Of a stretch of DNA of 64,000 bases, positions 9,820 to 39,784 are shown one piece after another. Source of the DNA: an uncultured Chlorobiota bacterium (GTDB lineage Bacteria > Bacteroidota > Ignavibacteria > UBA10030 > UBA6906); NCBI GenBank assembly GCA_900696645.1, contig CAADGV010000014.1, forward strand, positions 49,596-113,595, in the 5' to 3' direction. Below the pieces are notes generated by a model. It made no database searches, was not told the origin of the DNA, and saw only the letters and a program-made list of their open reading frames with translations. How positions within the stretch are numbered: position 1 is the first letter of the stretch; each line of letters opens with the position of its first letter. The position numbers and the translations under genes are program-made.

Positions 9820-10248
9820 ATGGAAAACGACAAGCCGGGCGTTCGACCGCCAGCCATTCCGGAACCGTCCTCCAAAATGACGAAGAGATTTCGTTGGAAG
9901 CTCTGGGTCTTTATGATACTGTTTGTCCCTGTTGTGCTGTTTGCCGGGTATACGTGGTTCGTCCTTAACTGGAGCTATTCATCGGGAGAACGAGCGGGCT
10001 ATGTTCAAAAACTCTCGAAAAAGGGATTCATAGCGAAAACGTGGGAAGGTGAGCTTGCCATGGTTTCGATGCCGGGAACGTTGCCTGAGATATTTCACTT
10101 TACCGTACCGAGTGACGAAGTTGCCGCGCAGATCAATGCATCTCTTGGAAAACGGGTGAAGCTGCACTACGAACAACATATAGGCATTCCGAGCAGGATT
10201 TTCGGGGAGAGTGAGTATTTCGTAAACAAGGTTGAGATTGTTGAATAG
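9820..10248 (+). CDS. Single-pass membrane protein, conserved hypothetical
   Basis: A 142-residue protein with a proline-rich cytoplasmic start, one membrane helix at about residues 28-52 (WVFMILFVPVVLFAGYTWFVL) and a soluble C-terminal domain of about 90 residues containing SSGERAGYVQKLSKKG and HYEQHIGIPSRIFGES. From memory, similar proteins occur in many Bacteroidota and Proteobacteria as uncharacterised proteins, sometimes misannotated as 6-phosphogluconate dehydrogenase. It is divergent from the nos cluster and shares the 158-bp upstream region with rrf2. Function unknown. Confidence 0.8.
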   Translation: MENDKPGVRPPAIPEPSSKMTKRFRWKLWVFMILFVPVVLFAGYTWFVLNWSYSSGERAGYVQKLSKKGFIAKTWEGELAMVSMPGTLPEIFHFTVPSDEVAAQINASLGKRVKLHYEQHIGIPSRIFGESEYFVNKVEIVE

Positions 10249-10421: not shown

Positions 10422-10814
10422 TTGGTGCGTGATCGATTCTGGTGGACGCTCTTTGCAATCGGTGTTATAACCGTAGTCAGCGGCAGCATTCAGTGTACTG
10501 TGCCGCGGCTGCTCCTGCAAGCCCTCTCGCCGGAGGTAACAGTAGCGAGCGAGCATTTCCTGAGAATCACAGGAGTTCTGACTGCTGTATTTGGCGCCTT
10601 GCTGGTTCATGCACTTATCACGGCTGAGCCGCAACACGTCGCAGTTCTGTGGGTGGGAATTCAGAAAGTAGTAACCGCGTCGGCTGTTGGACTTGCTATT
10701 CAGGATGCCATCTTCTCACCATTGGCACTTGCTGCAGCAGGATTTGACATGGTGGCAGGGGTGATGATCATTGCATTCTGGTTTTGGCTGAAGCAGCAGG
10801 CAAACGAATCATAA
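10422..10814 (+). CDS. Small polytopic membrane protein of unknown function
   Basis: A 130-residue protein beginning at GTG, since no in-frame ATG lies close upstream. It has four hydrophobic segments, at about residues 8-28, 45-68, 72-92 and 98-123, with little soluble sequence. I do not recognise the family. It precedes the five-gene phosphatase/TIR set by 19 bp, so it could be its first gene, although it looks unrelated in content. Confidence 0.65.
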   Translation: MVRDRFWWTLFAIGVITVVSGSIQCTVPRLLLQALSPEVTVASEHFLRITGVLTAVFGALLVHALITAEPQHVAVLWVGIQKVVTASAVGLAIQDAIFSPLALAAAGFDMVAGVMIIAFWFWLKQQANES

Positions 10815-10833: not shown

Positions 10834-12288
10834 ATGTCGCTCGTTCTTCATCCACGTCTCACAAATCATCCGGGCAATTGCGTGCAGGTATGGCTCGGAT
10901 TATTCGAGCGGACTACCACGCCTACTCTCCAATGGTTTCTCGACGGACAACTGACGTTCCCCCAAATCATTCGGCCCCTCAACAATATCCGGCCACTTGA
11001 CCTCGTCGACTACAACGAACCCCGCGTCTTCTCCGGCGTGTTTCAATTCAACAACCTTCTACCGAGCACACGTTATACAATTGAGGTCCGGGGAGGCGGT
11101 GAGTCCGCCTCGTTGAGCGTGTACACGCTTCCCGATGCCGTGACGGACAGGATGGGGGAGTGGTTCAACATCATGCTCGTCTCGTGTTTCTATCAGCCGG
11201 AGGATCGGCAGGGGTTGGCGGGCGAGCTTGTCTCACGGATTCCGCTTCCACTTCGACCGCATATGACTCTCCTCATGGGCGACCAAGTGTATCTTGACCT
11301 CCCGACGTTACAGGATTTCAAGGATGATGTCGGATGGCTTGCGCGGAAGTTTGAACGCGATTATACCTGCAACTGGCGCGGCCCCAATGGCTTTGCAAGA
11401 CTTCTTGCTGCTGCTCCCGCAGTTTCAACTCCCGATGACCATGAATACTGGAACAACTTCCCGCATATGAGCTTGTGGATCGGCAACTCGTGGTCGAAAG
11501 CGGGAAGGGATCGGTGGACACAAGCCGGTCGCATGATGTATGAGGGATTTCAACTTGCAGCGCCCGGCACAATAGGCGATCATCTTGTTGTAGAGATTCC
11601 GCCTCTCTCAATCTTTGTTGCCGATACACGATCGTTGCGCGATCCGGATAACATGAATATGCTGCGTCCCGGCGGCATTCAACCGATTGTCGATTGGGCG
11701 AACGATGTGGCGGCCCGGGGCCGTTTCGGCATATTAGTAACAGGACAATCACTTCTGGACAAACCCGCAAGCGATCTCGAAGGAAAGTTTGCCGACTATG
11801 CCCTTGCGAATTACAACGAATTTACCCCGCTCGTTCAAGCTCTGGATCGACTCGCCGAGGCTGGTCGCGAAGTGATTCTGATTACCGGAGATGTGCATTG
11901 GGGCCGCGTCGCTGAAGCAATGAACCGGACGGATGCGCGGAAGAAAATCTTCGAAGTTATTTCGTCTCCAACATCCCTCGTGACAACGGTTGGCTACGAT
12001 CAATTTGCCAAGATAGCGTCGTTCGTCAAAGGACTGTTTGGAAGGAAGGATCCGTGGCCCCGTCACGCCGATCCTGATGATGTCCCCCATTTTCTCGCCC
12101 GGCAGGTCCTCGGTCCAAAGTACGGATGCGTGAAGTACCACGGCCAGAAAGGCAATCATGTGGCGATCTTGTCGTTTCGACAGGTCGGCTTTGGATTGGA
12201 TACACGGGTAACATACTTTCCCATTCATACGGAGTTGCAGTATCGGACACCGGTTGAAGTCAACATTCCGCGGCTCGGTCCCAAGTAA
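10834..12288 (+). CDS. PhoD-like metallophosphoesterase
   Basis: A 484-residue protein without a signal peptide. About 100 residues of beta-sandwich sequence (PSTRYTIEVRGGG) precede the metallophosphatase domain. Metal-binding motifs of the PhoD-like family are visible in order: GDQVYLD near residue 150, DDHEYWNNFP near 200 and ITGDVHWGR near 350. Lack of an export signal is unlike classical secreted PhoD alkaline phosphatases. It heads a compact same-strand set of five genes with gaps of 15-70 bp that ends in a TIR protein, so a role other than phosphate scavenging is likely; the substrate is unknown. Confidence 0.85.
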   Translation: MSLVLHPRLTNHPGNCVQVWLGLFERTTTPTLQWFLDGQLTFPQIIRPLNNIRPLDLVDYNEPRVFSGVFQFNNLLPSTRYTIEVRGGGESASLSVYTLPDAVTDRMGEWFNIMLVSCFYQPEDRQGLAGELVSRIPLPLRPHMTLLMGDQVYLDLPTLQDFKDDVGWLARKFERDYTCNWRGPNGFARLLAAAPAVSTPDDHEYWNNFPHMSLWIGNSWSKAGRDRWTQAGRMMYEGFQLAAPGTIGDHLVVEIPPLSIFVADTRSLRDPDNMNMLRPGGIQPIVDWANDVAARGRFGILVTGQSLLDKPASDLEGKFADYALANYNEFTPLVQALDRLAEAGREVILITGDVHWGRVAEAMNRTDARKKIFEVISSPTSLVTTVGYDQFAKIASFVKGLFGRKDPWPRHADPDDVPHFLARQVLGPKYGCVKYHGQKGNHVAILSFRQVGFGLDTRVTYFPIHTELQYRTPVEVNIPRLGPK

Positions 12289-12321
12289 CGGCGAACAATC
12301 ACATTCAGTGGAGATAATCCG

Positions 12322-13086
12322 ATGCTTAATATCCTGCAGGCTGATGTTAAAAGCCCGAATCCGGATTTCGCAAAAGTCCCGCGCAAGTCAAACGAGGACA
12401 ATATTGCATGGCTCGAACGCAATATGGCGGATACGGATGAAAGTGTTTCTCTTGTGATGTTGGGAGGTAAGAACCCCATCGACTTCAGGCTCCGGCTTGC
12501 CCAGGCACATGTCCGTGATGATCTGACGCCAAGTAGTTGGTCGCATGTTATGCTGCTCGGCAAGCCGTCAAAGAATCTTGAATCGACAACTGTTCATGAA
12601 ATCTCCCTCTATCCCTCGGATGGATTCAACTATCCCGTGCCGACGAACGCGGAACAGCAGGGCAAACTTAAAACGTATGCCGACGCGGAGGAATTTCCGA
12701 ACATTGCAGTCATCAACGTTCCTGTGCAGCAATCGATGGTAAAAGATGCGTTGCGCAAGTATCGGCATCAGCGTGCCGTACTCGACGGGGTTGAGTTGGT
12801 TGTTATGTGGCTCGCCTTCGTGTGGGGAGTCGGCAGGTCGGGAAACCCCTTGCTGGACGGGAATGGTGTCCCCTCGGCTGCGATGATCGAGGTTGTTATA
12901 AGTTCACTCGGGTATGAATTGACGCCGGGATTGCCGAGCCGCGCAAGCTGTCCCGAAGCAATCTGGCAGGCGGCAAAATGGTGGCATGAGTATTACGAAC
13001 GTGATAAGCGAGAGGGGCTTACCGGCGCCTGGTGTGTAACGCACAAATTGATTGATGATGATGATAGAATGTTGAATGGCGCTTGA
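12322..13086 (+). CDS. Permuted papain/NlpC-P60-like protein, possibly lacking the catalytic Cys
   Basis: A 254-residue cytoplasmic protein. SSWSHVMLLG resembles the histidine motif of circularly permuted NlpC/P60 (YiiX-like) proteins. Downstream, GVPSAAMIEVVISSLGYELTPG aligns by eye with the usual nucleophile region CSxLVxxxxxxxGxxLtPg, but a serine takes the place of the expected cysteine. A different cysteine follows in SRASCPEAIWQAAKWWH. It may therefore be a serine-nucleophile, inactive or lipid-binding variant. It has a good RBS (GTGGAGAT) and lies 33 bp after the PhoD-like gene. The fold assignment is by eye and moderately secure. Confidence 0.6.
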   Translation: MLNILQADVKSPNPDFAKVPRKSNEDNIAWLERNMADTDESVSLVMLGGKNPIDFRLRLAQAHVRDDLTPSSWSHVMLLGKPSKNLESTTVHEISLYPSDGFNYPVPTNAEQQGKLKTYADAEEFPNIAVINVPVQQSMVKDALRKYRHQRAVLDGVELVVMWLAFVWGVGRSGNPLLDGNGVPSAAMIEVVISSLGYELTPGLPSRASCPEAIWQAAKWWHEYYERDKREGLTGAWCVTHKLIDDDDRMLNGA

Positions 13087-13155
13087 CGAATGACGGCCGA
13101 TATCCGGCTTGAGGAGAAAATCACAATCTGTTGAACAATTCATAGTGAGGAAGAT

Positions 13156-13536
13156 ATGCCGCTGAACAAAATCCCGATCAACGAAACAGGGGGTACGGTA
13201 ACTGTTGAAATTTCATTCGGTTACGCACAAGTGGGGGCATACACACTTTTGCTGTGGAACAAAACAGGGAGTGACTACAAGCGGTTGGGAGAAGGGATGA
13301 ATACGGATAATATTCCGGACGAATTCAAACTACCGAAGCCGGTCAAGAACAACGTCGGCAAAATTCTCGACTGTCTTGCAACTATCATCAGTCCGAAGCC
13401 GGAGGAAGGGGGTCGTTACCGGGTGGACATGATTGTCCGGCAGGATGGTGAGGAATGCGGCCGCGAATCGTATGAAGGAACAATATCGACGAAATCCATT
13501 TCAGTCAGGCTTGCTGCACAACTCAGCACATCATAA
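13156..13536 (+). CDS. Small predicted beta-rich protein of unknown function
   Basis: A 126-residue protein with no signal peptide or membrane segment. The pattern of alternating hydrophobic residues (TVTVEISFGYAQVGAYTLLLW; GRYRVDMIVRQDG) suggests a beta-sandwich. I recognise no family. It sits 69 bp after the permuted papain-like gene and 15 bp before the outer-membrane gene, inside the phosphatase/TIR set, preceded by GAGGAAG. Confidence 0.7.
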   Translation: MPLNKIPINETGGTVTVEISFGYAQVGAYTLLLWNKTGSDYKRLGEGMNTDNIPDEFKLPKPVKNNVGKILDCLATIISPKPEEGGRYRVDMIVRQDGEECGRESYEGTISTKSISVRLAAQLSTS

Positions 13537-13551
13537 CACAAGGGTCTCCCC

Positions 13552-14598
13552 ATGAAATCGCTTGCATTTGCAGTTCTCTTGCTGGTCTACACAATTCCGC
13601 TCGCAGCCCAGGAGTTGGCGCCCGGTGAATTGCGAGCCTCCGATGCGCGGTTGAACTTTTCCGTGCCCGATGCACCGGCGTTTGCCATCCTCAACTATAC
13701 CCCCTCAGTGATCATCCGGCCGACTACCGTGAGGGAAATCGGGCTTGCTGTTGCCGACTTCATCCGGGGCGGCAGCGTTCTGCCGAAAGCGTTTGCCGCG
13801 GAGTTTTCCCCCGGCTTGTTGGCCGGAGGAAGCACGCTGTCGATCCGTGAATACAATGCAAATCCGTTTTGGTACAGAACGCGCATCTCCATTGCAAGCC
13901 GCTCGTTTGATGACAATACCGGACGGATTCAGGCGAGCCTCGGTGTTCGCATGACGTTGATGGACGACGCGGATCCCCGCATGAACCGGCACTTCATTCA
14001 GGATATGTCGAAAATGGCGATGAGCATCAACCAGACTCTTTCCAGAAGTGTTCAGGTGGCGCCGCCTACAGAAAGCGGAGTTGTCTCAGTTCAATCGCCT
14101 GACCTTGAAGTATTGGAGGCGGAAGTCAGCCGGTTGCGGGCACAGCAACGCGATGAAAGCTGGAATGCCAACATTGCGGAAATAGCCGCTGCGGTGAGAT
14201 TCAGTTCGAGGGATTCGCTCGCAAAGAATGCCGTTGCCGATAAATACCAGCTTTGGATAGCAGCATCCTTCGGTGCATCAGAGTGGGGGCAGTTTATCTT
14301 CAACCTTACCGGGTCGGTGGAGCGGGCACAGAGCTTTGTGATGGATTCGACCAGCATCGCCATGAATTCCCGTTTCTACTTCGGCTCGAATTCGATCAAG
14401 GTATACGGAGAAGGGCAAATAACCGCGTTGGATAATTCTCCCGCCTTGTATCTGTTCAACATCGGCGGGGAAATAACACCGATCAGCAGTTTTTGGCTGG
14501 AATTTTCCGCAGGCTTTGAAAAGCGGGGAAAGGAACCGGCCATCATTCGTACAGCATTTCATGTCCGTTGGGGGTTGCCCGAAGGACTTATCAACTAA
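13552..14598 (+). CDS. Secreted protein, probable outer-membrane or periplasmic protein of the TIR operon
   Basis: A 348-residue protein with a clear signal peptide (MKSLAFAVLLLVYTIPLAAQE). A short coiled-coil-like stretch (LEVLEAEVSRLRAQQRDE) lies near residue 190. The C-terminal half shows amphipathic beta strands (FYFGSNSIKVYGEGQI, FWLEFSAGFEKRG, FHVRWGLPEG) like a small beta-barrel or the end of one. No family is recognised. It is the only exported soluble product in the five-gene set and sits just before the TIR membrane protein, which could link envelope state to the TIR domain. Confidence 0.75.
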   Translation: MKSLAFAVLLLVYTIPLAAQELAPGELRASDARLNFSVPDAPAFAILNYTPSVIIRPTTVREIGLAVADFIRGGSVLPKAFAAEFSPGLLAGGSTLSIREYNANPFWYRTRISIASRSFDDNTGRIQASLGVRMTLMDDADPRMNRHFIQDMSKMAMSINQTLSRSVQVAPPTESGVVSVQSPDLEVLEAEVSRLRAQQRDESWNANIAEIAAAVRFSSRDSLAKNAVADKYQLWIAASFGASEWGQFIFNLTGSVERAQSFVMDSTSIAMNSRFYFGSNSIKVYGEGQITALDNSPALYLFNIGGEITPISSFWLEFSAGFEKRGKEPAIIRTAFHVRWGLPEGLIN

Positions 14599-14634
14599 GT
14601 AGTTCGTTGTTCTTTAGAATACAAGAGGTACACC

Positions 14635-15831
14635 ATGTCCGGAATCTTCATCAGTTACCGCCGGCAGGATAGCGCCGGTTGGGTCGGCCGCTTGACTGAT
14701 TCATTGAAGGAGAATTTTGGTGAAGATCAGATCTTCATGGATATTGAGGCGATTGAAGCCGGAGTTGATTTCGTCGAATCCATCAACAAAGCGGTCGGCT
14801 CGTGTCAGGTGTTGCTGGCCATTATCGGGCCGCGATGGCTTTCCGTTACGGATCAGAGCGGACGCAGACGGCTTGATAATCCCGAAGATTTCATACATCT
14901 GGAGATTGCCGCGGCATTGCAACGCAACGTTCGAGTGATTCCCGTGTTGGTGGGCGGAGCCGAGATTCCTGCGAGCGATCAACTGCCCGATGATCTGAAG
15001 CCGCTTGCCCGCCGTCAGGCACATGAGATTTCCGACACCCGATGGGAATACGATTCCGAACAGTTGGTGAAGCTTCTTGAAAAGGCGTTAGGTCGCAAAT
15101 CCAAGAAAAAATCCGCTGCCGAATCCGGCGCATTCCAATCTGCAGTTCTCCCTCCATCACAAAAAGGAGTCAGCGTCAAAGCAAGTATAGGACTGGTACT
15201 CAGTCTCTTTGTCTTTCTCTTCCTCCTCTCCGGCGATCCGATGGATACAAACACGGCAGTCGGCGCCATCATGTTTTTGCTGACTGCTCTTGTGCTGGGA
15301 ATAATTGCATTCTACGATGTGAAGCTGAACAAAGTAAGAGGGAAAGTCCTGGCAATCGGCTCAATAGCCCTTGCGGTGATTCTATGCTTTGTCGTATTCG
15401 GGAGGTTCTCCTCACATACTCCTGCCCAACAGGGTGACCTACCCTCAGATACCTCCGCTGCAATAGCGCAGGTTGCACCGTCAACTGTTGACCCATCTGA
15501 TCAGCAGCCAGCAGCACAACCGGAGTATCGTTCGACTGCGCCAGCGAGAGTGGTGAACATCACCGGTTCATGGCAGGATGCGGAGGGAGGAATCCTGTAC
15601 TTTCAACAAGAGGGAAACACGTTTGTTCTCAGTGGTACCGACGACAATGGAATCGAAATGCACGGCAACGGCTTCATCGATCAACAAATCGTCACCTTTG
15701 ATATCGGAGCAAACGGATACACCCTCGGCCGCGCGCAAATGATTCTCTCCGACAACAGAAGAGAAATGCGAGGCACGCTATATGTCCCGCTCACGGGAGC
15801 GTCGGAGAGTCTTGTTCTTCGCAAGCAGTAA
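14635..15831 (+). CDS. TIR-domain transmembrane protein with C-terminal beta domain
   Basis: A 398-residue protein. Residues 1-150 form a TIR domain (GIFISYRRQDSAGWVGRLTDSL, then DIEAIEAGVDFVESI and LLAIIGPRW); Glu90 in HLEIAAAL sits where NADase-type TIR domains have their catalytic glutamate. Three membrane helices follow, at about residues 180-198, 206-224 and 235-256. The final ~90 residues (GSWQDAEGGILYFQQEGNTF) look like a small lipocalin-like beta domain outside the membrane. TIR domains in bacteria often cleave NAD+ or signal in defence. Last gene of the five-gene set, 36 bp after the secreted protein. NADase activity is inferred. Confidence 0.88.
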   Translation: MSGIFISYRRQDSAGWVGRLTDSLKENFGEDQIFMDIEAIEAGVDFVESINKAVGSCQVLLAIIGPRWLSVTDQSGRRRLDNPEDFIHLEIAAALQRNVRVIPVLVGGAEIPASDQLPDDLKPLARRQAHEISDTRWEYDSEQLVKLLEKALGRKSKKKSAAESGAFQSAVLPPSQKGVSVKASIGLVLSLFVFLFLLSGDPMDTNTAVGAIMFLLTALVLGIIAFYDVKLNKVRGKVLAIGSIALAVILCFVVFGRFSSHTPAQQGDLPSDTSAAIAQVAPSTVDPSDQQPAAQPEYRSTAPARVVNITGSWQDAEGGILYFQQEGNTFVLSGTDDNGIEMHGNGFIDQQIVTFDIGANGYTLGRAQMILSDNRREMRGTLYVPLTGASESLVLRKQ

Positions 15832-22396: not shown

Positions 22397-22459
22397 GTTT
22401 TCCCTCCCATTATCCCGTATATTCGCGTGGTTTCCCAATTCATACGAGACAACAGCGTA

Positions 22460-23152
22460 ATGCAAAAATCAGTACTCGTCGTTGATGACGAAAAAGACAT
22501 CATTGATATGCTCAAGTACAATCTTGAGAAGGAAGGCTACAAAGTCCTGACGGCACGCGACGGCAAGAAGGCGCTCGATCAGGCCAAACACTCGCCCGAT
22601 CTGATACTGCTCGACGTGATGATGCCGGAAATGGACGGCTGGGAAGTGTGCAAGCAACTGAAGCGTGACGTAAAAACTGCTTCTATTCCGGTCGTTTTTC
22701 TTACGGCAAAAGGAACCGAGTTCGACGAGGTTCTCGGCCTTGAGTTAGGGGCGGATGACTACATGGTCAAACCTGTGGCCGTTCGGACGCTTCTTGCTCG
22801 CGTGAAAGCAGCTCTTCGCCGCAAGGAAAATGCTACAACAGATTCCACTTCTTCCGCCAATGAGATTCTTCGAGTTGACAAACTGGAGATCAATGTTCCC
22901 AACTATACTGCTTCGGTCGGCAACAAGGAAATCACGCTGACGCGTAAAGAATTCGAAACACTCGTCTATCTTGCCCGCAACAGAGGCCGCGTGATGACGC
23001 GGGAAGTTCTGCTGAATGTTGTGTGGGGACAAGACGTGCGTGTTGTTGACCGCACGGTGGATGTGCATATCAGCAAAATCCGTGAAAAACTCGGCTCTTA
23101 CGGCGACTACATTGAAACGGTGAAGGGTGTCGGCTACAGAATGAAGGCGTAA
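22460..23152 (+). CDS. phoB: OmpR/PhoB-family response regulator
   Basis: Start placed at MQKSVLVVDDEKDIID (Met12 of the track ORF), giving 230 residues. The receiver domain has the acidic pair DDE, phospho-acceptor Asp in LILLDVMMPEMDG, conserved Thr in FLTAKGTE and Lys in DYMVKPV. The C-terminal winged helix ends with the PhoB-like VVDRTVDVHISKIREKLG. It overlaps the histidine kinase by one base (TAATG) and stands ahead of a phosphate-uptake island whose promoters carry 11-bp-spaced repeats, so PhoB is the best identification. Confidence 0.9.
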   Translation: MQKSVLVVDDEKDIIDMLKYNLEKEGYKVLTARDGKKALDQAKHSPDLILLDVMMPEMDGWEVCKQLKRDVKTASIPVVFLTAKGTEFDEVLGLELGADDYMVKPVAVRTLLARVKAALRRKENATTDSTSSANEILRVDKLEINVPNYTASVGNKEITLTRKEFETLVYLARNRGRVMTREVLLNVVWGQDVRVVDRTVDVHISKIREKLGSYGDYIETVKGVGYRMKA

Positions 23153-24603
23153 TGCGCATGCGTCGTATTCAAACGAGGATTACCCTTACCTACTTCCTGC
23201 TCACGTTGTTTGCGTTCATCGCGTTTGCGATAGTAGCGAGTCTCGCAACACAGCAACATCTCACCAACCAGAAAATTGCCGAGCTTTCCAGGCGGATTGA
23301 TGTCATTATCCCCCTTCTCAAATCTGAAATAAACAATGACCCGGCCGTTCTTCACCGGCAAATCAGGAATCTCGCGTTGGCAGCCGATCTCCGCATTACA
23401 CTGATTGATTCTACCGGAGTTGTGCTGGCGGATTCCGACGTGCCGTTTGAGGGAACGCCGGGCATCAAGAATCATTTACAGCGTCCCGAAATTCAACAGG
23501 CGATGCGGGAGAACATCGGTACGGATATGCGTCTCAGCTCGACGGTGAATGAAGAATTCCTGTATGTTGCAAAAACCGTTGATATGAGAGGGGCAAACGG
23601 AGACTTGCGTGGAGTGAAATTCATCCGGCTCAGCGCGCATCTTCGTGATATTGCAACAATGGCGAAGGAAGAAAGAATCAACATTTTGATTGCCGGCGCG
23701 GTTGTGCTTGTGCTCGTTACAGGGATAAGCCTTTTCGTCTCACACCGCATCGCAATCCCGATGGAGCAGATTGCAGATGCCGTCGAGAATATCCGGTCGG
23801 GCGATCTTGACACGCGCATCGAAGTCAAAGAGAATGACGAAATCGGGAGAGTGGCGCAGGCGGTGAATGAAATGGTGGAGAAGCTCAAGACGGATATAGT
23901 CCAGCTCAAAAAGCTTGAACGGGTACGCAGCGAGTTCCTGGGCAACGTCTCGCATGAGTTGCGCACGCCGATTTTCTCGTTGCAGGGATTTCTGGAGACG
24001 TTGCTTGAAGGGGCGATTGACGATACTGCGGTAAACAGGGATTTTGTACAGAAGGCGTACAATCATTCGGTTCGTCTCAACACGTTGTTGGGCGATCTTA
24101 TCACCATCTCGCATATCGAATCGGGTGAGATGAAGATGAGTTTCCGCTATTTTATTCTCAATGAACTGTTATCTTCAGTCGTTGAGGAATTCACACCAAC
24201 GGCGGAGAATAACAAGGTTTCTCTCAGGCTTGCCCCCAATCTTCCTTCCAATGTCGAAGTGTTGGGAGATAAGGAACGGCTGCACGTTGTGTTCGACAAT
24301 CTGTTGGAGAATGCCATCAAGTACAACAAACCCGGTGGTGAAGTGATTGTCTCGTTCGAACGGCAGAACGGCAAAGTCCGACTCAGTGTTGCGGATACGG
24401 GAGTTGGCATTGCCCCCGAACATCAGCCGAGAATTTTCGAGCGTTTCTATCGCGTCGACCGGAACCGCTCGCGGGAAGTCGGAGGTACGGGGCTCGGGCT
24501 TGCCATTGTGAAGCATATCATTGAAGCGCACGGCAGCAGTGTGCAGATTGAAAGCAAAGTTGGAAAAGGGAGCGTGTTCAGTTTTACGTTGAAGATGGCA
24601 TAG
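23152..24603 (+). CDS. phoR: Sensor histidine kinase, PhoR-like
   Basis: A 483-residue membrane kinase. Two membrane helices (about residues 8-30 and 175-198) enclose a periplasmic sensor region of about 145 residues. A HAMP domain follows (RIAIPMEQIADAVENIRSGDLD), then HisKA with the phospho-His in VSHELRTP and HATPase motifs N (LLENAIKYNKPGG), G1 (DTGVGIAP) and G2 (GGTGLGLAIVK). It is translationally coupled to phoB. A large periplasmic loop is unusual compared with enterobacterial PhoR but common elsewhere. PhoU, encoded 12 kb away, probably modulates it. Confidence 0.9.
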   Translation: MRMRRIQTRITLTYFLLTLFAFIAFAIVASLATQQHLTNQKIAELSRRIDVIIPLLKSEINNDPAVLHRQIRNLALAADLRITLIDSTGVVLADSDVPFEGTPGIKNHLQRPEIQQAMRENIGTDMRLSSTVNEEFLYVAKTVDMRGANGDLRGVKFIRLSAHLRDIATMAKEERINILIAGAVVLVLVTGISLFVSHRIAIPMEQIADAVENIRSGDLDTRIEVKENDEIGRVAQAVNEMVEKLKTDIVQLKKLERVRSEFLGNVSHELRTPIFSLQGFLETLLEGAIDDTAVNRDFVQKAYNHSVRLNTLLGDLITISHIESGEMKMSFRYFILNELLSSVVEEFTPTAENNKVSLRLAPNLPSNVEVLGDKERLHVVFDNLLENAIKYNKPGGEVIVSFERQNGKVRLSVADTGVGIAPEHQPRIFERFYRVDRNRSREVGGTGLGLAIVKHIIEAHGSSVQIESKVGKGSVFSFTLKMA

Positions 24604-25326
24604 ATGAACAAATCGGGTCAGTCTCTTACGGCGGCTGCGATGCCGCTTCTTCTCGTGTTGCTATCCGGTTGTGCGTCTGTTTCCTCGCCGACAAGAGTGG
24701 AAATTATCGAAGGCTTGGGATTGTTTGACTCGCTGATTCCCGTTCCGGCGGACAGCATTATCGGTTTGTATGAACGGTACGATCCGGCGACTTTCCATTC
24801 AATCTACAAAAACGACCTTGAGCTTGTGCAGCAGTTCATCGACTCGATGAACACGCATCTCGATGAAGCATCGAGGATTGACACGCTTGCTATTGATCAC
24901 GCAATAGAGAATTTCGGCAATGCCGCCCGCTCGCAGAAAACCATCTTCATTTCCAGCAGCTACTTCTTTCTCTTCAACGATCCGGCTGTTGTCCGCTCGG
25001 TGCTGACGCATGAATTCGGCCATATCTACCACGACAAACTGACGCCCGATCAGCGTGAGATGCTTGAACAAATCTGGCTGGAAATGCAGGAACGGGCGCT
25101 CTTCTATATTTTTCGTGACGGCGAGTATTCGGAGAATGCAAAATTTGGCGGCCATCCTGATGAGAGTCCGGCGGAGTTGTTTGCGTCGGGATTCAATCTG
25201 TTCAACAACAAACAGGATGAGCTGAACGTACGACTTCGGTACGTCAGCACCGAACACCATCAGCTTGTTGAGAGATTGAGAAACCTCGTCGTCGCCAGCA
25301 CGCTTTCCACAAAATTCCTTCCCTGA
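24604..25326 (+). CDS. Lipoprotein with HEFGH zinc-protease motif
   Basis: A 240-residue predicted lipoprotein (lipobox LLSGC, Cys near residue 24) starting immediately after the phoR stop. The central HEFGHIYHDKL matches the HExxH zinc-metalloprotease signature, and a downstream DESPAELFASGF supplies a possible third ligand Glu as in gluzincins. The surrounding sequence does not match M48 or other families that I can name. Its tight coupling to phoBR suggests an envelope task connected with phosphate starvation, but this is inference from position. Confidence 0.78.
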   Translation: MNKSGQSLTAAAMPLLLVLLSGCASVSSPTRVEIIEGLGLFDSLIPVPADSIIGLYERYDPATFHSIYKNDLELVQQFIDSMNTHLDEASRIDTLAIDHAIENFGNAARSQKTIFISSSYFFLFNDPAVVRSVLTHEFGHIYHDKLTPDQREMLEQIWLEMQERALFYIFRDGEYSENAKFGGHPDESPAELFASGFNLFNNKQDELNVRLRYVSTEHHQLVERLRNLVVASTLSTKFLP

Positions 25327-25382
25327 CCTCTTCAATTCTGCCAAGAGTCAGCCGAAAGTTGACTGTTTCTACGCTCTTTTTC

Positions 25383-25438
25383 TTCAATATTTCGTAAACC
25401 CCTCTTAACACTCCCGTAACATTGTTTTCGTAACTTTG
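25383..25438 (+). promoter_or_regulatory. Pho box and promoter for the TonB receptor operon
   Basis: TTCAAT, GTAAAC, TTAACA and GTAACA start at 25383, 25394, 25405 and 25416, exactly 11 bp apart, as in PhoB/PhoP direct-repeat operators. After a 9-bp gap comes TAACTTTG (25431-25438), a perfect match to the Bacteroidota -7 consensus TAnnTTTG. The receptor gene starts 78 bp further on. A weak hairpin (AGTCA/TGACT) just after the lipoprotein gene may end the phoBR transcript. Confidence 0.65.
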
Positions 25439-25515
25439 TAGCGGTCAAATCAGATTCACCACTTGAAATACCAACAGTCGTATCATTTTCACAAACATCA
25501 TAAGGGTCAGGCCAC

Positions 25516-28242
25516 ATGATGAAAAACATCGGCGCTACCATTTTTCTCGTAATGCTCTTGCTGGGAACCCTCGGGACAATTCATGCCCAAACAGGTGTGC
25601 TTGCAGGGAAGGTCTTTGACGAACAAACCGGCGAGGAACTCGTCGGGGCGAACGTTCTGATAGTCGGGACGACAACCGGCGCAACAACGGATATTGACGG
25701 CAAATACACGGTGCGCAACATTCCGGTCGGAACGTATAGCGTTCGTATCTCCTTTGTCGGCTACGGGACAAAGACGGTTACTGACGTGGTCATAAAGGCC
25801 GGACAACCGGCAACGCTGAATGTGAGTCTCACATCCTCGACTGTCGAGGCCGATGAAATCGTTATTACCGCGGAACGTGTGCGGGCAACGGAAAGCGCCT
25901 TGCTTGCCGAACGCAGGAAAGCAGCGGCAATTGGCGATGGCATCAGCGCCGAGCAAATTAAACGGGCTCCGGACGCAACATCGGGCGATGCGCTGAAGCG
26001 GGTGACAGGAATTTCGATTGTTGATAACAAATTTGTGTACGTCCGCGGCATTACCGACCGCTATAACGGCACAACGGTTGACGGTGCTTCGGTGACAAGC
26101 ACGGAAGTGGGGAAGAAGGGCTTCTCGTTCGATCTTATTCCATCCAATCTTATTGAAAACACGACGGTTGTGAAAAGCGCAACGCCCGATCTGCCGGGCG
26201 ATTTTACCGGCGGACTCGTTCAGGTGAACACGCTCGACATTCCGACCGACCGTCTTATCAAAGCTGGCGTGTCAAGTTCGTACAACACTGTTTCGACGTC
26301 GAAAGATTTCCTGGTCTCGCAGGGCGGCAAACGCGATTGGTTGGGATATGACGACGGCAGCAGGTCGATGCCGGAACAGAATGGTTCGATGACAGAGTTT
26401 GCAAGATCGCTTCCCAACAACTGGGCTCCACAACAGAAAAAAGCTCCCTACAACGGGTCGTTCTCCCTCACGTTCGGCGATCAGTTTATTCTCGGAGATG
26501 AAGAGACAAGCGAGAGCAGGCTGGGACTTATCACATCGCTCTCGTACAGCAACAGCTTCCAGCGCACGAACTTCAAAGTAAATGAATTGACGAGCGGAGG
26601 GTTTCCACTCCGCCGGTTCGACGGGTTAAAAGATGAGTATTCGGTGTTGTGGGGGGCAATCGTTAACGCAACGTATAAGATTTCCAATCTTCACAAAATC
26701 AGCTTCAAGAACAGTTACAACAGATCCGCCGATGATGACGTCAGCCAATATCAGGGAGAAGACGGCAACACGGGAAGCGAAGTCCGCAGCACCGCCATTC
26801 AGTGGACACAGCGCTCGGCCTATACCGGACAGATTGTCGGCGACCACAATTTCCCCGAATTGGGTGGATTGATGTTGCAGTGGCGTGGAACAGCATCTTC
26901 ATCGTTGCGAGAAGACCCTGATAGAAAGCTTGTTCCGTACGTCAGGCAGATTGGTTCGGCGCCCGAGGATCCTTTCTATGTTGCGACAAGCGACCGGAGT
27001 TGGGAGAAAGCGAACGACAGAAGCAAAGGCGTTGGATTGGATTTTTCTCTCCCCGTCGGGACTCTGAAAACAAAAGGTGGCTTGTACTACGAAGGACGAA
27101 CCACTGATTACAAGATTCGTGCGTACAGAATAACAGGCGTTGCCGGCACACCGTTCCAGTTGTACTCATTGCCCATTGACAGCGTGTTTCGGCCGGAGAA
27201 TTTAGGTGCAGGCGGGTTTGCATTCTTTGAGAATCCCAGCAACGTCGCCAGTTTCTACGATGGCGATCAAGAACTCATAGCAGGATACGCGATGGTGGAT
27301 GTGCCGTTTGCCGTTGCCGGACAGGACTTCCGTTTCGTCGGAGGGGCACGTTTGGAGAATTCTCTGCAAACGTTGCGCAGCACACGCTCGCTGACCGACC
27401 CGACTCCGGAAACAACCCAATTCAAGAAGATTGATATTCTTCCTTCGATGAATCTGACGTACATTGTCAATCCGATCACAAACTTCCGTCTTGCGTACAG
27501 CCAGACGTTGAATCGTCCCGAGTTTCGCGAGCTTGCTCCTGTTGCATATTACGACTTTGACAGGCTTGAGACCGTGTTCGGGAACCCGAACCTGCAGCGT
27601 GCGTTGATCAAGAACTACGATGCACGGGTTGAAGTGTTCCCGGCCCCTGGCGAAGTGGTTGCCGTCAGTTATTTCCACAAGTCTCTCTCTTCTCCGATCG
27701 AAGAGGTTATCGATGTGTCATCGACGCCGGTTCGATCCTATGTCAATTCGAATCGTGCAAACAACAGGGGATGGGAAATCGAGTTTCGTAAGTCATTAGA
27801 CTTTCTTGGAGGCTACTTCAGCAACTTCATGCTGTACGGCAACTACACAAGAGTCACATCCGAAGTCGAGGTGCTGGATGAGGTAACACCGGGCGTGTTT
27901 CAGGTTTCTAGGCGGCCGCTGCAAGGACAATCGCCGTACATGGTCAATCTTGGATTCTTCTTCACGGAACCGACGACGAGAACATCAGTCAGCATCTTCT
28001 ACAACAAAGCCGGCCGAAGAATCGATGCCGTCGGCTCTGCCATCAGCGAGCCTGATGTGTACGAGGAGCCGCGGGATCTTGTGGATATCACGGTGTCACA
28101 GCCGTTGTTCAACATGTTTGAAGTGAAGTTTGCGGTAAAGAATCTGAACGGAAGAGAGCAGTTTCTCTCTAAGCGTGATCAGATCTATCGCAGCAATGAC
28201 ACGGGAACATCGTATTCACTCTCGTTGTCTGCTACACTGTAA
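25516..28242 (+). CDS. TonB-dependent receptor with carboxypeptidase-regulatory N-terminal domain
   Basis: A 908-residue outer-membrane receptor. A signal peptide (cleaved near IHAQT) is followed by a CarboxypepD_reg-like beta domain (GKVFDEQTGEELVGANVLIVG), the plug domain (GDALKRVTGISIVDNKFVYVRGI) and a long C-terminal barrel ending in the aromatic-poor LSLSATL. It has a Pho box upstream and a T9SS-sorted partner gene downstream, so it probably imports a phosphorus-containing compound or a cofactor needed under phosphate limitation. The ligand is not identifiable from sequence. AGGGTCAG lies 5 bp before the start codon. Confidence 0.92.
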   Translation: MMKNIGATIFLVMLLLGTLGTIHAQTGVLAGKVFDEQTGEELVGANVLIVGTTTGATTDIDGKYTVRNIPVGTYSVRISFVGYGTKTVTDVVIKAGQPATLNVSLTSSTVEADEIVITAERVRATESALLAERRKAAAIGDGISAEQIKRAPDATSGDALKRVTGISIVDNKFVYVRGITDRYNGTTVDGASVTSTEVGKKGFSFDLIPSNLIENTTVVKSATPDLPGDFTGGLVQVNTLDIPTDRLIKAGVSSSYNTVSTSKDFLVSQGGKRDWLGYDDGSRSMPEQNGSMTEFARSLPNNWAPQQKKAPYNGSFSLTFGDQFILGDEETSESRLGLITSLSYSNSFQRTNFKVNELTSGGFPLRRFDGLKDEYSVLWGAIVNATYKISNLHKISFKNSYNRSADDDVSQYQGEDGNTGSEVRSTAIQWTQRSAYTGQIVGDHNFPELGGLMLQWRGTASSSLREDPDRKLVPYVRQIGSAPEDPFYVATSDRSWEKANDRSKGVGLDFSLPVGTLKTKGGLYYEGRTTDYKIRAYRITGVAGTPFQLYSLPIDSVFRPENLGAGGFAFFENPSNVASFYDGDQELIAGYAMVDVPFAVAGQDFRFVGGARLENSLQTLRSTRSLTDPTPETTQFKKIDILPSMNLTYIVNPITNFRLAYSQTLNRPEFRELAPVAYYDFDRLETVFGNPNLQRALIKNYDARVEVFPAPGEVVAVSYFHKSLSSPIEEVIDVSSTPVRSYVNSNRANNRGWEIEFRKSLDFLGGYFSNFMLYGNYTRVTSEVEVLDEVTPGVFQVSRRPLQGQSPYMVNLGFFFTEPTTRTSVSIFYNKAGRRIDAVGSAISEPDVYEEPRDLVDITVSQPLFNMFEVKFAVKNLNGREQFLSKRDQIYRSNDTGTSYSLSLSATL

Positions 28243-28308
28243 GAAATGTTTCACAGGGTCAGGATTAATCAATCATCTTTTTCAAATTTATCCCCAGGAG
28301 GTAACGTA

Positions 28309-30033
28309 ATGGTCAAGAGGATAGCAACTGTGTTAATCCTTGTACTCTGTAGTTCGTTCGCGCTTGCGCAGAAGCCGCAAGCGGTTATCGGCGCGGGATT
28401 GGGAGCGCCGTTCAAGTCTGCATACTTTCAACCCGGCGGAACGGTGAGAACCCTCTCCGCGGATACTGTGTACATTCTTACCGGTATTTACTATGTCGAT
28501 TCACTGGCTGTCATCAACATCGCCCCGGGAACAGTGATTCTTGGTGATTCGGCAACAGGCGCCACATTGTGCATTAAGCGGGGCGGGAAAATCTATGCCA
28601 ACGGTACGGTAGATCGCCCTATCGTGTTTACGACGCGGAACAATCCCGGCAATCGCAGAGTCGGGCAATGGGGCGGCCTTATCCTGCTTGGCACGGCCCG
28701 CAACAATCAAAGCCTGAACCAGACAATTGAAGGCGGACTTCATCCTTCAGCCGTGTACGGCGGAACAAACGATGATGATTCGAGCGGCGTTGTAAGATAC
28801 GTCCGAATCGAATACGGCGGGATTCCGTTCCTTACCGACAACGAGGTCAACGGATTGACGATGGGAAGTGTTGGTCGCCGCACCGTCATCGAATATGTTC
28901 AAACGAGCTTCAACAATGACGACGGCTTCGAGTGGTTCGGCGGAACCGTCAATGCACGTTACCTCGTCTCATGGCGCAATCTTGACGACGACTTCGATTC
29001 TGATTTCGGCTGGAGCGGCCGTGTGCAGTTCGGCTATGCCTTGCGCGACCCGGCAATTTTTGATGCAAGCACAGGAAGCAACTCGAACGGTTTTGAGACA
29101 GATAATATGGGAGGAAGCTCCGGTCCCTGGCCGGCGCGCCCGACAACGAGCGGAATCTTTTCCAACATGACGCTCATTGGCCCTGCTTCCGATACAAGCC
29201 AATACGGAAGCATTTCGCCCAAACATGATTATGCATTGTTTATCCGCCGGCGTTCTTCGATCAGTATCTACAACTCATTGTTTGCCGGTTTCCGTCACGG
29301 GCTGGTGTTGCGCAATGACAGCACGCAGTGGAATGCCAGCGTTGACAGCCTGCAGATTCGCAATACCAGCATTCAGGCCGGCCGTCGTACTGTTGGAGTC
29401 GATACACCTCCGGCATCATTCTCGGGTACGGGAGGATTCAACGGTTTCAACGCTGAAACTTGGTTCCTGACTTCGGGATGGGGCAACATCGGAACTGCGC
29501 CGCGCCAGCCATCGGCCGTCGGGTTGGGTGCGGCGGCATTCGTCATGGGCGTAGGTACCGATCCCCGGCCGGCACTTGGGTCTGAGCCTGTAACAGCCGG
29601 TACAAACTTTTCCAATCCGCGCCTGAACGGGTTCATCACAACTACATACCGAGGCGCATTCGATCCTGCGTTGCCGATGAATCAACAGTGGACTGCAGGC
29701 TGGACGAACTTCGATCCGCAGAACACGAATTATCTGACAAGCGTGAAGGAAGTGTCGCAGACTGTTCCGCAAAGGTTCGAACTCGGTCAGAACTATCCTA
29801 ATCCCTTCAACCCGACAACGAATATTCAGTTCCAGATTCCGAAGAACAGCTTCGTCACGTTGAAGGTGTATAACATGCTCGGACAGGAAGTGGCAACACT
29901 GGTGAATCAACAGTTGAGTGCAGGTTCATTTGTTGCCGATTTCGATGCGGCGAATCTTGCGTCCGGTTCGTACATCTACCGCTTGTCTGCCGACGGTGCG
30001 GTGCAGTCGCGCAAAATGGTTCTCATGCGCTAA
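28309..30033 (+). CDS. Secreted T9SS-sorted protein with right-handed beta-helix-like repeats
   Basis: Start placed at MVKRIATVLILV, which has AGGAGGT nine bases upstream; 574 residues. A signal peptide is cleaved near ALAQK. The body shows repeated short strands and Asp/Asn-rich turns (GVVRYVRIEYGG; TVIEYVQTSFNNDDGFEWFGG), like a parallel beta-helix. The last ~85 residues are a type IX sorting domain (NYPNPFNPTTNIQF ... KMVLMR). It lies 66 bp after the TonB receptor and probably works with it at the cell surface. No enzymatic motif is visible. Confidence 0.85.
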   Translation: MVKRIATVLILVLCSSFALAQKPQAVIGAGLGAPFKSAYFQPGGTVRTLSADTVYILTGIYYVDSLAVINIAPGTVILGDSATGATLCIKRGGKIYANGTVDRPIVFTTRNNPGNRRVGQWGGLILLGTARNNQSLNQTIEGGLHPSAVYGGTNDDDSSGVVRYVRIEYGGIPFLTDNEVNGLTMGSVGRRTVIEYVQTSFNNDDGFEWFGGTVNARYLVSWRNLDDDFDSDFGWSGRVQFGYALRDPAIFDASTGSNSNGFETDNMGGSSGPWPARPTTSGIFSNMTLIGPASDTSQYGSISPKHDYALFIRRRSSISIYNSLFAGFRHGLVLRNDSTQWNASVDSLQIRNTSIQAGRRTVGVDTPPASFSGTGGFNGFNAETWFLTSGWGNIGTAPRQPSAVGLGAAAFVMGVGTDPRPALGSEPVTAGTNFSNPRLNGFITTTYRGAFDPALPMNQQWTAGWTNFDPQNTNYLTSVKEVSQTVPQRFELGQNYPNPFNPTTNIQFQIPKNSFVTLKVYNMLGQEVATLVNQQLSAGSFVADFDAANLASGSYIYRLSADGAVQSRKMVLMR

Positions 30034-30049
30034 TCGTGTTGAGAGTCAC

Positions 30050-30074
30050 GCCGGAGAGGAACTTCTTCTCCGGC
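30050..30074 (+). terminator. Hairpin just after the T9SS protein gene
   Basis: GCCGGAGA and TCTCCGGC form a perfect 8-bp stem with a 9-nt loop, starting 17 bp after the stop codon. No clear T tract follows, so termination or 3'-end stabilisation are both possible. Confidence 0.45.
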
Positions 30075-30118
30075 TCCTGATTCTGAGTTGTTCGAGCTGG
30101 CGAGTTGTTCACAAATCC

Positions 30119-30136
30119 ATCCACAGATGTGGATAA
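30119..30136. promoter_or_regulatory. Palindrome containing one perfect DnaA box
   Basis: ATCCACA-GA-TGTGGAT is a 7-bp inverted repeat; on the minus strand it reads TTATCCACA, the consensus DnaA box. Only one perfect box is present, so this is not evidence of an origin. Confidence 0.35.
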
Positions 30137-30227
30137 GAAACTGAATAAAGGTTGTTGAGAGAGAAGAGAAGGTTTTCAGATACAGTTCGCAGTGATCAAT
30201 CCACCCACTCCTTGATGGGATGGAACA

Positions 30228-30275
30228 GAGGCTTCACCAACGACTCTGACCCTCGTTGTGTGAAGCCTCACCATT
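30228..30275 (+). terminator. Long-stem terminator-like hairpin upstream of the porin promoter
   Basis: GAGGCTTCACCAACGA pairs with TCGTTGTGTGAAGCCTC (one bulge) around CTCTGACCC and is followed by ACCATTTTT. It separates the TonB receptor transcript from the porin/pst promoter. The remainder of the 30034-30436 gap holds the palindrome and Pho box listed separately; I see no gene in it. Confidence 0.6.
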
Positions 30276-30321
30276 TTTCGTCGAATTCAGGCTAAAAAGA
30301 TGCAAAACGGCCATTCATCTC

Positions 30322-30377
30322 TTTACAATTTCTTAACATTGGGTTTACATCGGGTTGACCCGATCTGTGTAGATTTA
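30322..30377 (+). promoter_or_regulatory. Pho box and promoter for the porin-pst operon
   Basis: TTTACA, TTAACA, TTTACA and TTGACC begin at 30322, 30333, 30344 and 30355, a perfect 11-bp period. After the same 9-bp gap as in the other Pho promoter comes TAGATTTA (30370-30377), close to TAnnTTTG. The promoter sits downstream of where the longest porin ORF would begin, which argues for the shorter porin start. Confidence 0.75.
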
Positions 30378-30436
30378 TGCCCGACAGTTGCAAGGGGCTG
30401 TCACTACGGTCATTCACAACTACAAAGGGTCAGACT

Positions 30437-31819
30437 TTGTACATCAGCGCCATCCTCCGAGTGGGCGCAATGGTGATGTATATCTCCACCATGACACTCG
30501 CACAACAGGCAGAGCAGGATTCCTCGTTACGCGATGAAGTTGAACATCTCAAAGCGGTCGTTGAAGGTCTCCAGGAATCGTCAACAGAGTACCAGGGCAT
30601 CGTCGAGCAACTGCGCAAGATCAAGATTTCCGGCTACATGCAAACGCAGTTCCGATGGACTGACGTAAACGGAACACTCTCTCCGTTCTCCGGCGGCAAC
30701 TTCCCGACGAACAGCAACAAAGTGTTTCAGGTACGCCGGGGACGCATCAAAATCAACTACGATAACGTTCTTACACAATTCGTTCTGCAGTTCGACGCCG
30801 TTCCGGCAGGGTTCTCCATCAAGGATGCATTTCTTTCGATCACCGATCCGTGGATGCAATCATTCGGATTGCAGATAGGTGTGTTCGACCGTCCGTTCGG
30901 GTACGAGATTTCCTTTTCCTCGAACATGCGCGAGGCGCCGGAGCGTTCACGCATGTTTCAAACGCTGTTTCCCGGCGAACGGGATCTTGGCGCAAAGCTC
31001 TTCTTCGCCCCGCAGCTTGGTGATTTGACATGGCTGCGGGCAGACGTCGGTATCTTCAACGGTACGGGAGCAAATGCGAATGAATTCGACAGTTTCAAGG
31101 ATGTGATCGGACGTGTTGGCGCACAATTTCCGTTTGAAGATATCGGAGCGGAAATTGATGTCGGCGTGTCGGGGTACTTCGGCAACGTCCGCAACAATAC
31201 GAAATATCTCTGGGAAACTGGAGAGGTGTTTCCGGGCGTCAGGGGTTTTGTGGTTGATTCGGCGCTTTCGAATTTGGGAGATGGCGTTGCGCGGCGCTAC
31301 ATGGGCGTTGATGCGCAATTCTACTATGATGTTCCGTACATCGGTGGCCTTGCATTGCGTGCCGAATACATAACCGGCAAGCAGCCCGGCGGTTCGGAGT
31401 TGATTGCCGCAACAGCAAGCAGTGGAAGAAGTCAAACAACTGTCAGTCCGGCGTCGCAGCCGACGGGGCCGCTGTACCTTCGCAAGTTTGCCGGATGGTA
31501 CGTCAATCTCGTGCAGAATATCGGCAACGCGCATCAGGTCATGGCGAAGTACGATGTGTATGATCCGAACACCGAGGTCGGTAAAGGCGAGTTGTTCGAG
31601 TCGAGCAATCTTTCTGCTGCCGATCTGAAATACTCTACTCTCGGCTTCGGCTATGCGTATCATTGGGATGGGAATATCAAATTCATTCTCTACTACGAAA
31701 TCGTTAAGAACGAAACAGTCACGCCGGTGTCGGGGACATCGGCAACGCTGTCTCCATACTTCAAGGATGTGAGAGACAACGTGTTGACGTTTCGCATTCA
31801 GTATAGATTTCCGTTTTAG
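30437..31819 (+). CDS. Phosphate-selective porin (OprP/OprO-like)
   Basis: The track ORF starts at 30377, inside the inferred promoter, so I place the start at the TTG at 30437, four bases after AGGGTCAG; an ATG at 30470 would cut the signal peptide short. The ~460-residue protein has a signal sequence cleaved near TLAQQ, a short coiled coil (LRDEVEHLKAVVEGLQE) and a beta-barrel beginning ISGYMQTQFRW with the FQVRRGRIKINYDN strand typical of OprP-type porins, ending in FRIQYRFPF. It heads the pst operon and should give phosphate access to the periplasm. Confidence 0.85.
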   Translation: MYISAILRVGAMVMYISTMTLAQQAEQDSSLRDEVEHLKAVVEGLQESSTEYQGIVEQLRKIKISGYMQTQFRWTDVNGTLSPFSGGNFPTNSNKVFQVRRGRIKINYDNVLTQFVLQFDAVPAGFSIKDAFLSITDPWMQSFGLQIGVFDRPFGYEISFSSNMREAPERSRMFQTLFPGERDLGAKLFFAPQLGDLTWLRADVGIFNGTGANANEFDSFKDVIGRVGAQFPFEDIGAEIDVGVSGYFGNVRNNTKYLWETGEVFPGVRGFVVDSALSNLGDGVARRYMGVDAQFYYDVPYIGGLALRAEYITGKQPGGSELIAATASSGRSQTTVSPASQPTGPLYLRKFAGWYVNLVQNIGNAHQVMAKYDVYDPNTEVGKGELFESSNLSAADLKYSTLGFGYAYHWDGNIKFILYYEIVKNETVTPVSGTSATLSPYFKDVRDNVLTFRIQYRFPF

Positions 31820-31851
31820 AGATTTGTTTCAACAACATACAGGGTCAGAAC

Positions 31852-32676
31852 ATGAACAAGCTGCTTCTCACGGCTGTTGTCGGTGTATTTGTGTGGACAA
31901 GCATTTATGCGCAAGAGAAAATTACAGTCAAGGGCTCGGATACGATGGTGATTCTTGCGCAACGTTGGGCTGAGAGGTACATGTCCGCAAACAAGAATGT
32001 CGTCATACAAGTGACAGGCGGTGGCTCGGGAACGGGAATCTCGGCACTGATCAACGGCACAACGGATATTTGCAACTCATCCCGCCCGATGAAACCGGCC
32101 GAACGTGACAAACTGAAGCAGCGATTCGGCACTCGCGGTATCGAGATCAAATGCGCGCAGGACGGATTGTCAATCTATGTACATGAATCGAATCCCGTCA
32201 CGGAACTGACTCTGCCGCAAATCAAGGATATCTACACAGGGAAGATCACGAATTGGAAGGATGTTGGCGGACCGAACGAGCGTATTGTGTTGTACAGCCG
32301 CGAGAACAACTCGGGCACGTATGTCTACTTCAAAGACAATGTGCTTAATGGAGATGATTTTGCCGCTACCGCGCAGAATATGCCCGGAACCGCCTCGGTG
32401 GTAAACGCGGTTGCAAAGGACAAGAACGGCATCGGTTACGGCGGCGCTGCATACGGAAAGGGTATTCGTGAGTTGAAGGTGAGGAAGGACGCAAGCTCGC
32501 AAGCATACGCGCCCACGCGGGAAACAATTACTTCGGGAGTCTATCCGATCAGCCGGTATCTGTTCATGTACATCAAGAATAGGCCGACGGGCATAATGAA
32601 GGAATACATCGACTGGATTCTCGGAGACGAAGGACAGAGTGTTGTGAATGAAGTCGGGTATTTCCCGATCCGGTAG
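31852..32676 (+). CDS. pstS: Phosphate-binding periplasmic protein PstS (copy 1)
   Basis: A 274-residue exported substrate-binding protein (signal cleaved near SIYAQE). Phosphate-contact motifs of PstS are present: KGSDTM, GGGSGTG, SSRPM and SRENNSGTY. It is followed 40 bp later by a second, closely similar copy and then pstC. The start is preceded by AGGGTCAG three bases upstream. It delivers phosphate to the PstCAB importer. Confidence 0.93.
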   Translation: MNKLLLTAVVGVFVWTSIYAQEKITVKGSDTMVILAQRWAERYMSANKNVVIQVTGGGSGTGISALINGTTDICNSSRPMKPAERDKLKQRFGTRGIEIKCAQDGLSIYVHESNPVTELTLPQIKDIYTGKITNWKDVGGPNERIVLYSRENNSGTYVYFKDNVLNGDDFAATAQNMPGTASVVNAVAKDKNGIGYGGAAYGKGIRELKVRKDASSQAYAPTRETITSGVYPISRYLFMYIKNRPTGIMKEYIDWILGDEGQSVVNEVGYFPIR

Positions 32677-32716
32677 TTGCATGGTGTTAGAAGTATATCT
32701 TAGGAAGGAGTAAAAG

Positions 32717-33541: not shown

Positions 33542-33554
33542 CGGAACGAGAAAC

Positions 33555-34700: not shown

Positions 34701-34701
34701 G

Positions 34702-35607: not shown

Positions 35608-35609
35608 CG

Positions 35610-36380: not shown

Positions 36381-36388
36381 GGTGCAGC

Positions 36389-39473: not shown

Positions 39474-39675
39474 TCAATGGGGCTCAAGGCCCAAAGCCGG
39501 CTGTATCTCGACAAGCAACTCAAAGTGATGAATGTTCAATTGGAAACACTTGCACAGACAGAGAAATACCGTGAGCGCGTTGGGCTGCTCACGCAGATTC
39601 CCGGGGTGGGAATCTACAGTGCAATGACGATCCTGATTGAGTTGCAGGATGTCGAGCGTTTTCAGATTTTCTATC
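39474..39675 (+). pseudogene. IS110-family transposase fragment
   Basis: About 65 residues match the transposase_20 region of IS110/IS116/IS902 enzymes: RLYLDKQLKVMNVQLETLAQ followed by LLTQIPGVGIYSAMTILIELQDVERF. Both the N-terminal DEDD catalytic domain and the C-terminal end are absent; after ERFQ the frame runs into unrelated sequence. It is a dead fragment. Confidence 0.75.
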
Positions 39676-39728
39676 ACGGCCAGAGGCTGCTGAGCCTTTG
39701 GCTCAGAGAACTTGACTTTCAATATAGG

Positions 39729-39784
39729 AGCGGTTGCAGCGGACGGTCCGCTGCGCGGCCCGCCGCTGAACCGGAGTGTTAGGC
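39729..39784 (+). other. attC-like half-site upstream of the methyltransferase cassette
   Basis: GCAGCGGAC-G-GTCCGCTGC is followed by GCCGCTGAACCGGAGTGTTAGGC. The end has the shape of a 3' attC half: L' box region then GTTAGGC matching the integron core site GTTRRRY. The 5' half is not recognisable and may have been lost to the element inserted to the left. Confidence 0.5.

Follow-up and report, generated by a model that had tools for sequence, protein, structure and literature searches.

The five closely packed genes at positions 10,834 to 15,831 of the window (the whole 64,000-nucleotide stretch of DNA that was analyzed), here called A to E, comprise three independent pieces rather than the single unit that the original prediction had proposed: A-B and C-D each occur widely as a pair of their own and come together only in this genus, and E, a TIR gene, was found in no genome but this one and that of one congener (G096). 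We tentatively favor, with slightly less than even confidence, the view that the locus is a genus-level mosaic of an A-B phosphodiesterase module acting on a lipid-like substrate, a C-D envelope pair, and a TIR protein, E, added in this lineage. The strict, cross-phylum A-B pair is the most interesting part of the locus. Literature searches found no paper describing either the A-B pair or the C-D pair.

The five-gene locus and its conservation in the genus

The locus and its upstream flank contain the following features:

9820..10248, + strand: up0, small membrane protein; conserved flank in the genus, in the same place in G096 (81% identity) and in a second congener, G146 (68%)
10422..10814, + strand: up1, small membrane protein with a TTG start; conserved flank (92% in G096, 67% in G146)
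10834..12288, + strand: A, PhoD-fold metallophosphodiesterase without a signal peptide (sub-threshold Pfam match, AF2, Foldseek)
12322..13086, + strand: B, protein of permuted NlpC/P60 (YiiX/LRAT-like) fold, probably not a standard cysteine enzyme (AF2, Foldseek)
13156..13536, + strand: C, small soluble protein adjoining D (homologues upstream of D)
13552..14598, + strand: D, exported protein, possibly an outer-membrane barrel (N-terminal signal-like segment)
14635..15831, + strand: E, TIR domain, three membrane segments, and a C-terminal outer region (TIR_2, topology)

All five ORFs lie on the forward strand, and the intergenic gaps from A to E are 33, 69, 15, and 36 bp, in agreement with the 15-70 bp originally given. 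The original descriptions of the products (a cytoplasmic PhoD-like protein, a papain-like protein, a small beta protein, an exported protein, and a TIR membrane protein with an outer domain) were likewise borne out by the evidence given below. Among the five, only E passed a Pfam cut-off (TIR_2); B, C, and D had no Pfam match. No excess of promoter-like or terminator-like sequences was found at the five-gene locus.

As the original prediction required, the gene order is kept in another genome. G096 carries all five genes in the same order, with protein identities from A to E of 93, 87, 87, 96, and 89%, and also carries up0 and up1 in the same order upstream; its copy of E is interrupted by a contig end, with the last part found on another contig. 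Conservation of the five genes in order at 87-96% identity shows that their coding status is not due to chance. The genes up0 and up1 are part of the same genus-conserved stretch as A-E. At the same chromosomal place, G146 encodes up0, up1, an unrelated 271-aa membrane protein, C, D (which spans two contigs), and a TetR protein, with no trace of A, B, or E at this matching locus. An unrelated membrane protein therefore stands in G146 where A-B would be, indicating that the slot upstream of C is variable. We considered and rejected a five-gene unit, since relatives of C, D, and E were absent from all other A-B loci examined and G146 has neither A, B, nor E.

An alternative is that A to E are housekeeping genes with no connection to one another that point the same way by chance in a single genus, which would fit both a five-gene order known from two congeners only and a window context of respiratory, efflux, and phosphate-uptake genes. 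We consider this account quite improbable: order, identity (87-96%), and tight spacing are kept in both carriers, A-B and C-D are each real pairs, and the same partner families (GMC, ALO, SIR2, EEP, and patatin) recur near both of them. Against the mosaic reading, the five genes may still have come to act together in the two genomes that carry them all.

The phosphate-uptake region of the window (22427-37093; response regulator, histidine kinase, permease, ABC ATPase, and PhoU) includes duplicated phosphate-binding-type proteins (31852-33538) and lies at least 7 kb downstream of the PhoD-like gene A. Control of A by a Pho regulon was considered and rejected, as the window holds 49 Pho-box matches against 63 expected, none of them directly upstream of A. 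A fragment at 39477-39779 reads like an IS110-type transposase, without a Pfam match at 1e-5.

The A-B pair

Against the Pfam PhoD model (PF09423), A scored 23 bits (E 4.9e-5), below the curated cut-off of 27; judged by that cut-off, A is a divergent PhoD relative rather than a family member. Its fold was clearer. The AF2 model of A (pLDDT 93.2) gave PhoD (2yeq) as the top Foldseek match (E 5.4e-19, prob 1.00), which corresponds to the PhoD/purple-acid-phosphatase fold. Among 35 homologues, the residues S117 and C118, G149, D150, and Q151, Y153, D155, D201, D202, and H203, N207, G352 and D353, and H355 are invariant. By motif alone, D150, Y153, D155, D201, D202, H203, N207, D353, and H355 are predicted to form a metal-ligand-type set. 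We looked for a signal peptide, a membrane segment, and a hydrophobic N-terminal segment in A and saw none; A thus does not show the Tat export that is a trait of the PhoD family. A profile sequence search with A against the PDB gave nothing useful, and a search of viral contigs returned one weak match. The same genome also has two ordinary PhoD genes above the Pfam cut-off (L202 and L203), separate from A.

The AF2 model of B (pLDDT 92.6) had as its best PDB match in Foldseek 3kw0 (BcPPNE, a permuted NlpC/P60 protein; prob 0.97-0.99, E 2.6e-3), with a TM score of 0.3-0.5, suggesting a moderate resemblance. Position 185, which corresponds to the catalytic Cys site, is Ser in 31 of 37 homologues and Cys in one of the 37, and H75 is kept in 19 of 37. 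The catalytic Cys and His that define permuted NlpC/P60 enzymes are thus not conserved in B; with the Cys site mostly Ser and the His lost in half, ordinary cysteine-enzyme activity of B is therefore doubtful. The distant relative B' of genome G042 has a Cys at the catalytic position.

Within the class, A and B matched the same six of 245 genomes and were adjacent every time. A profile scan of genome contigs recovered 216 relatives of A and 78 further loci, and the A-B loci span at least eight phyla (Nitrospirota, Pseudomonadota, Planctomycetota, Myxococcota, Acidobacteriota, Thermodesulfobacteriota, Actinomycetota, and Bacteroidota). In about 75 of the 78, a relative of B is the next gene after A on the same strand; it is missing from that place only at contig ends (L047, L079) and in two distant copies from Rubrobacteraceae. 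Pairwise distances of A and B are correlated (r=0.785, n=31, 0/5000 permutations), a pattern that shared host descent of paired genes can also produce. In a tree of A, the window and congener copies form their own branch, apart from the copies in another family of the same class. A pair kept adjacent across at least eight phyla is almost certainly one working unit.

Most A-B neighbors elsewhere are ordinary. GMC oxidoreductases occur near A at 11 loci in several phyla, Lipase_3 lies directly upstream of A-B in Betaproteobacteria, abhydrolase genes are near A at other loci, and ALO-type FAD oxidases are found near A-B within the class. Only a few A-B loci have defense neighbors: one copy of A-B is near a type II CBASS operon, one near a Septu pair, and one near a SIR2 gene and an RloB/AAA pair. 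The Septu-type case is a PtuB-like gene near A-B in Anderseniella (locus assigned by eye). On a Roseibium plasmid (NZ_CP114790.1; L200, 10013-19101), A-B has a helicase gene on one side and the complete type II CBASS operon on the other; AbiE genes lie further out. In G042 (L023, 7221-12100), the distant A' and B' (the latter keeping a papain-type Cys) lie among a SIR2-like gene and an M19 dipeptidase gene, with the RloB/AAA_21 pair about 4 kb away.

We postulate that A is a cytoplasmic PhoD-type metal-dependent phosphodiesterase acting in a conserved two-gene module with B. As a permuted papain-fold partner, B would most likely bind or present a lipid-like substrate, or hold A, rather than act as a cysteine hydrolase, and the two proteins together would most likely hydrolyze a phosphodiester in a phospholipid or similar molecule. 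This lipid reading is suggested by the folds and by the GMC oxidoreductase, Lipase_3, and abhydrolase neighbors. One member of the PhoD family is a secreted phospholipase D (PMC4223295). Hydrophobic lipid-binding pockets are a feature of permuted NlpC/P60 proteins (PMC3142127), one of which is a phospholipase toxin (PMC12994826). Because A lacks the export signal of characterized PhoD enzymes, a lipid outside the cell is not an obvious substrate. In coupling a phosphodiesterase to a papain fold that is seemingly catalytically altered, A-B is a ready biochemical target.

The C-D pair and its changing neighbors

C is beta-rich by inspection and yielded no profile match and no PDB relative. D has an N-terminal signal-peptide-like segment and no other membrane segment; it is possibly an outer-membrane barrel, a class to which one of 14 D members matched (OMP_b-brl), at an E value of 0.059 only. 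A profile sequence search with D against the PDB gave nothing useful, and in viral contigs the D profile yielded no conserved stretch of use. Of the 245 class genomes, 21 have a D relative by profile search, as do 28 of the 396 genomes from the phylum. Homologues of C, found in 11 class genomes, are directly upstream of D in nearly all, and at most other D loci an ORF of 117-135 aa occupies that position. C and D distances are also correlated (r=0.825, n=13). The two genes are paired across Bacteroidota, and outside this genus always without A-B. We propose that C and D would together form an envelope pair whose neighbors change between genomes.

Those neighbors include Endonuclease_NS (twice), patatin (twice), LCAT, Tle1-like, GH46, GH108, and Amidase_2, as well as DUF900, EEP, ThsB_TIR, SIR2, and GMC/ALO oxidases. 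For most of them, the oxidases aside, the distance to D is no more than about 3 kb, and the same families are seldom seen at other places in the loci sampled; the partner families were chosen by inspection before counting, without a matched control. At one locus (L143, 7868-16946), a single run comprises an ALO oxidase, a GMC oxidoreductase, a calcineurin-type phosphoesterase, exported genes, Endonuclease_NS, C, and D. At another (L187, 8394-15949), C-D occurs with an EEP hydrolase, a CD-NTase-looking nucleotidyltransferase, an ImmA-like gene, and a weak relative of A. Related membrane proteins of unknown family are encoded at two C-D loci (L138, 3818-4630, and L186, 10279-10959), one of them directly before SIR2.

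This variety raises the possibility of an arsenal for antagonism or lysis, in which the constant element, C-D, would serve as carrier of, or protection from, lytic enzymes that vary (lipase, nuclease, wall hydrolase, or NADase), with A-B and E as the cargo here. In addition to the lytic, nuclease, and NAD-type families near C-D in different genomes, the membrane protein that holds the A-B slot in G146 is related to one encoded next to SIR2 where genome G037 carries C-D. However, many Flavobacteria-type copies of C-D have housekeeping neighbors only, A-B stands alone in many genomes, and the partners, as mentioned, were picked by eye. Delivery of C-D partners by a type VI secretion system (T6SS) was rejected, as 23 of 24 carriers lack the sheath protein VipB, which also speaks against an arsenal. 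On balance we consider this explanation unlikely; C-D with its changing lytic neighbors could nonetheless mark a class of effector locus outside T6SS. Very improbable, in our estimate, is a composite in which A-B is a two-protein enzyme, with a pseudo-papain lipid-binding subunit of a cytoplasmic PhoD-type phosphodiesterase, C-D is a Bacteroidota pair that carries exchangeable enzymes of lytic or NAD-consuming type, and both are joined here to a membrane TIR protein as an attack or defense device.

The TIR protein E and comparison with known systems

E matched TIR_2 at 51.7 bits, and its TIR domain aligned with SARM1 at E values of 3e-7 to 9e-7. Glu90 of E lines up with the glutamate of WVHKEI in SARM1, the known catalytic residue E642. 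Three membrane segments follow the TIR domain, and the C-terminal region is outside by topology. Under the mosaic reading, E would be a membrane-anchored TIR protein, probably NAD-consuming as judged from its sequence, that was gained in this lineage. The genome holds six TIR_2 genes.

The original prediction linked TIR domains to immunity or NAD signaling, and the catalytic-type glutamate agrees with that part of the claim. We weighed a TIR-based anti-phage (abortive infection) system, in which E would act as NADase effector and the pairs A-B and C-D would serve in sensing, signal processing, or delivery. Consistent with such a system are the glutamate, the CBASS operon beside A-B on the Roseibium plasmid, the distant A'-B' of G042 beside SIR2 with the RloB/AAA_21 pair nearby, and a locus (L149) where C-D is near ThsB-type TIR genes. 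Conversely, no further copy of E came up in a phmmer search of the other A-B and C-D loci examined; in addition, D is exported and E has an outer domain at its end. The defense context is weak as well: defense genes are near few A-B loci, and PADLOC matches among A-B neighbors are scattered. The window's ordinary genes give a comparable generic scatter, and we thus see no defense enrichment near A-B. Taken together, these data make an anti-phage system improbable. A defense role is possible, its positive support being the TIR domain and a few neighbors; a compact operon with a TIR gene is not necessarily a defense system.

In line with the original statement that the set matches no named defense system, PADLOC and NCBIfam named none for the five genes, and PADLOC has no model for A-D. 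E scored 28.6 bits against the ThcB4 model (cut-off 220) and only weakly against PADLOC ThsB, which does not place it in Thoeris. Neither ThsA, SAVED, CARF, nor another known TIR partner was found near E, ThsA had no match among the neighbors of the five genes, and no CBASS CD-NTase was present among the five genes or the scanned window ORFs.

Four groups of known systems offer comparisons. (i) A shares the fold and a conserved set of metal-ligand-type residues, the GDxxY and DDH motifs included, with the PhoD family (B. subtilis PhoD, 2YEQ; S. chromofuscus phospholipase D), but it has no export signal, falls under the Pfam PhoD cut-off, and is paired with B; on a reading of the motifs, A has Asp where B. 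subtilis PhoD seems to carry the Cys iron ligand. (ii) B has the same overall fold as the permuted NlpC/P60 proteins (BcPPNE 3KW0, YiiX, LRAT, and Tox-Act1), with the His, Glu, and Ser/Cys region in the same order, but is mostly Ser at the Cys site, has lost the His in half of the homologues, and is a near-obligate neighbor of a PhoD-fold enzyme. (iii) At a few loci A-B or C-D lies near genes of CBASS, Thoeris, or Septu islands, but neither pair belongs to those systems, and the majority of copies have other locations. (iv) E shares with the TIR NADases (SARM1 and Thoeris ThsB) the TIR fold, by sequence, and the aligned glutamate, but differs from them in having three membrane helices and an outer domain.
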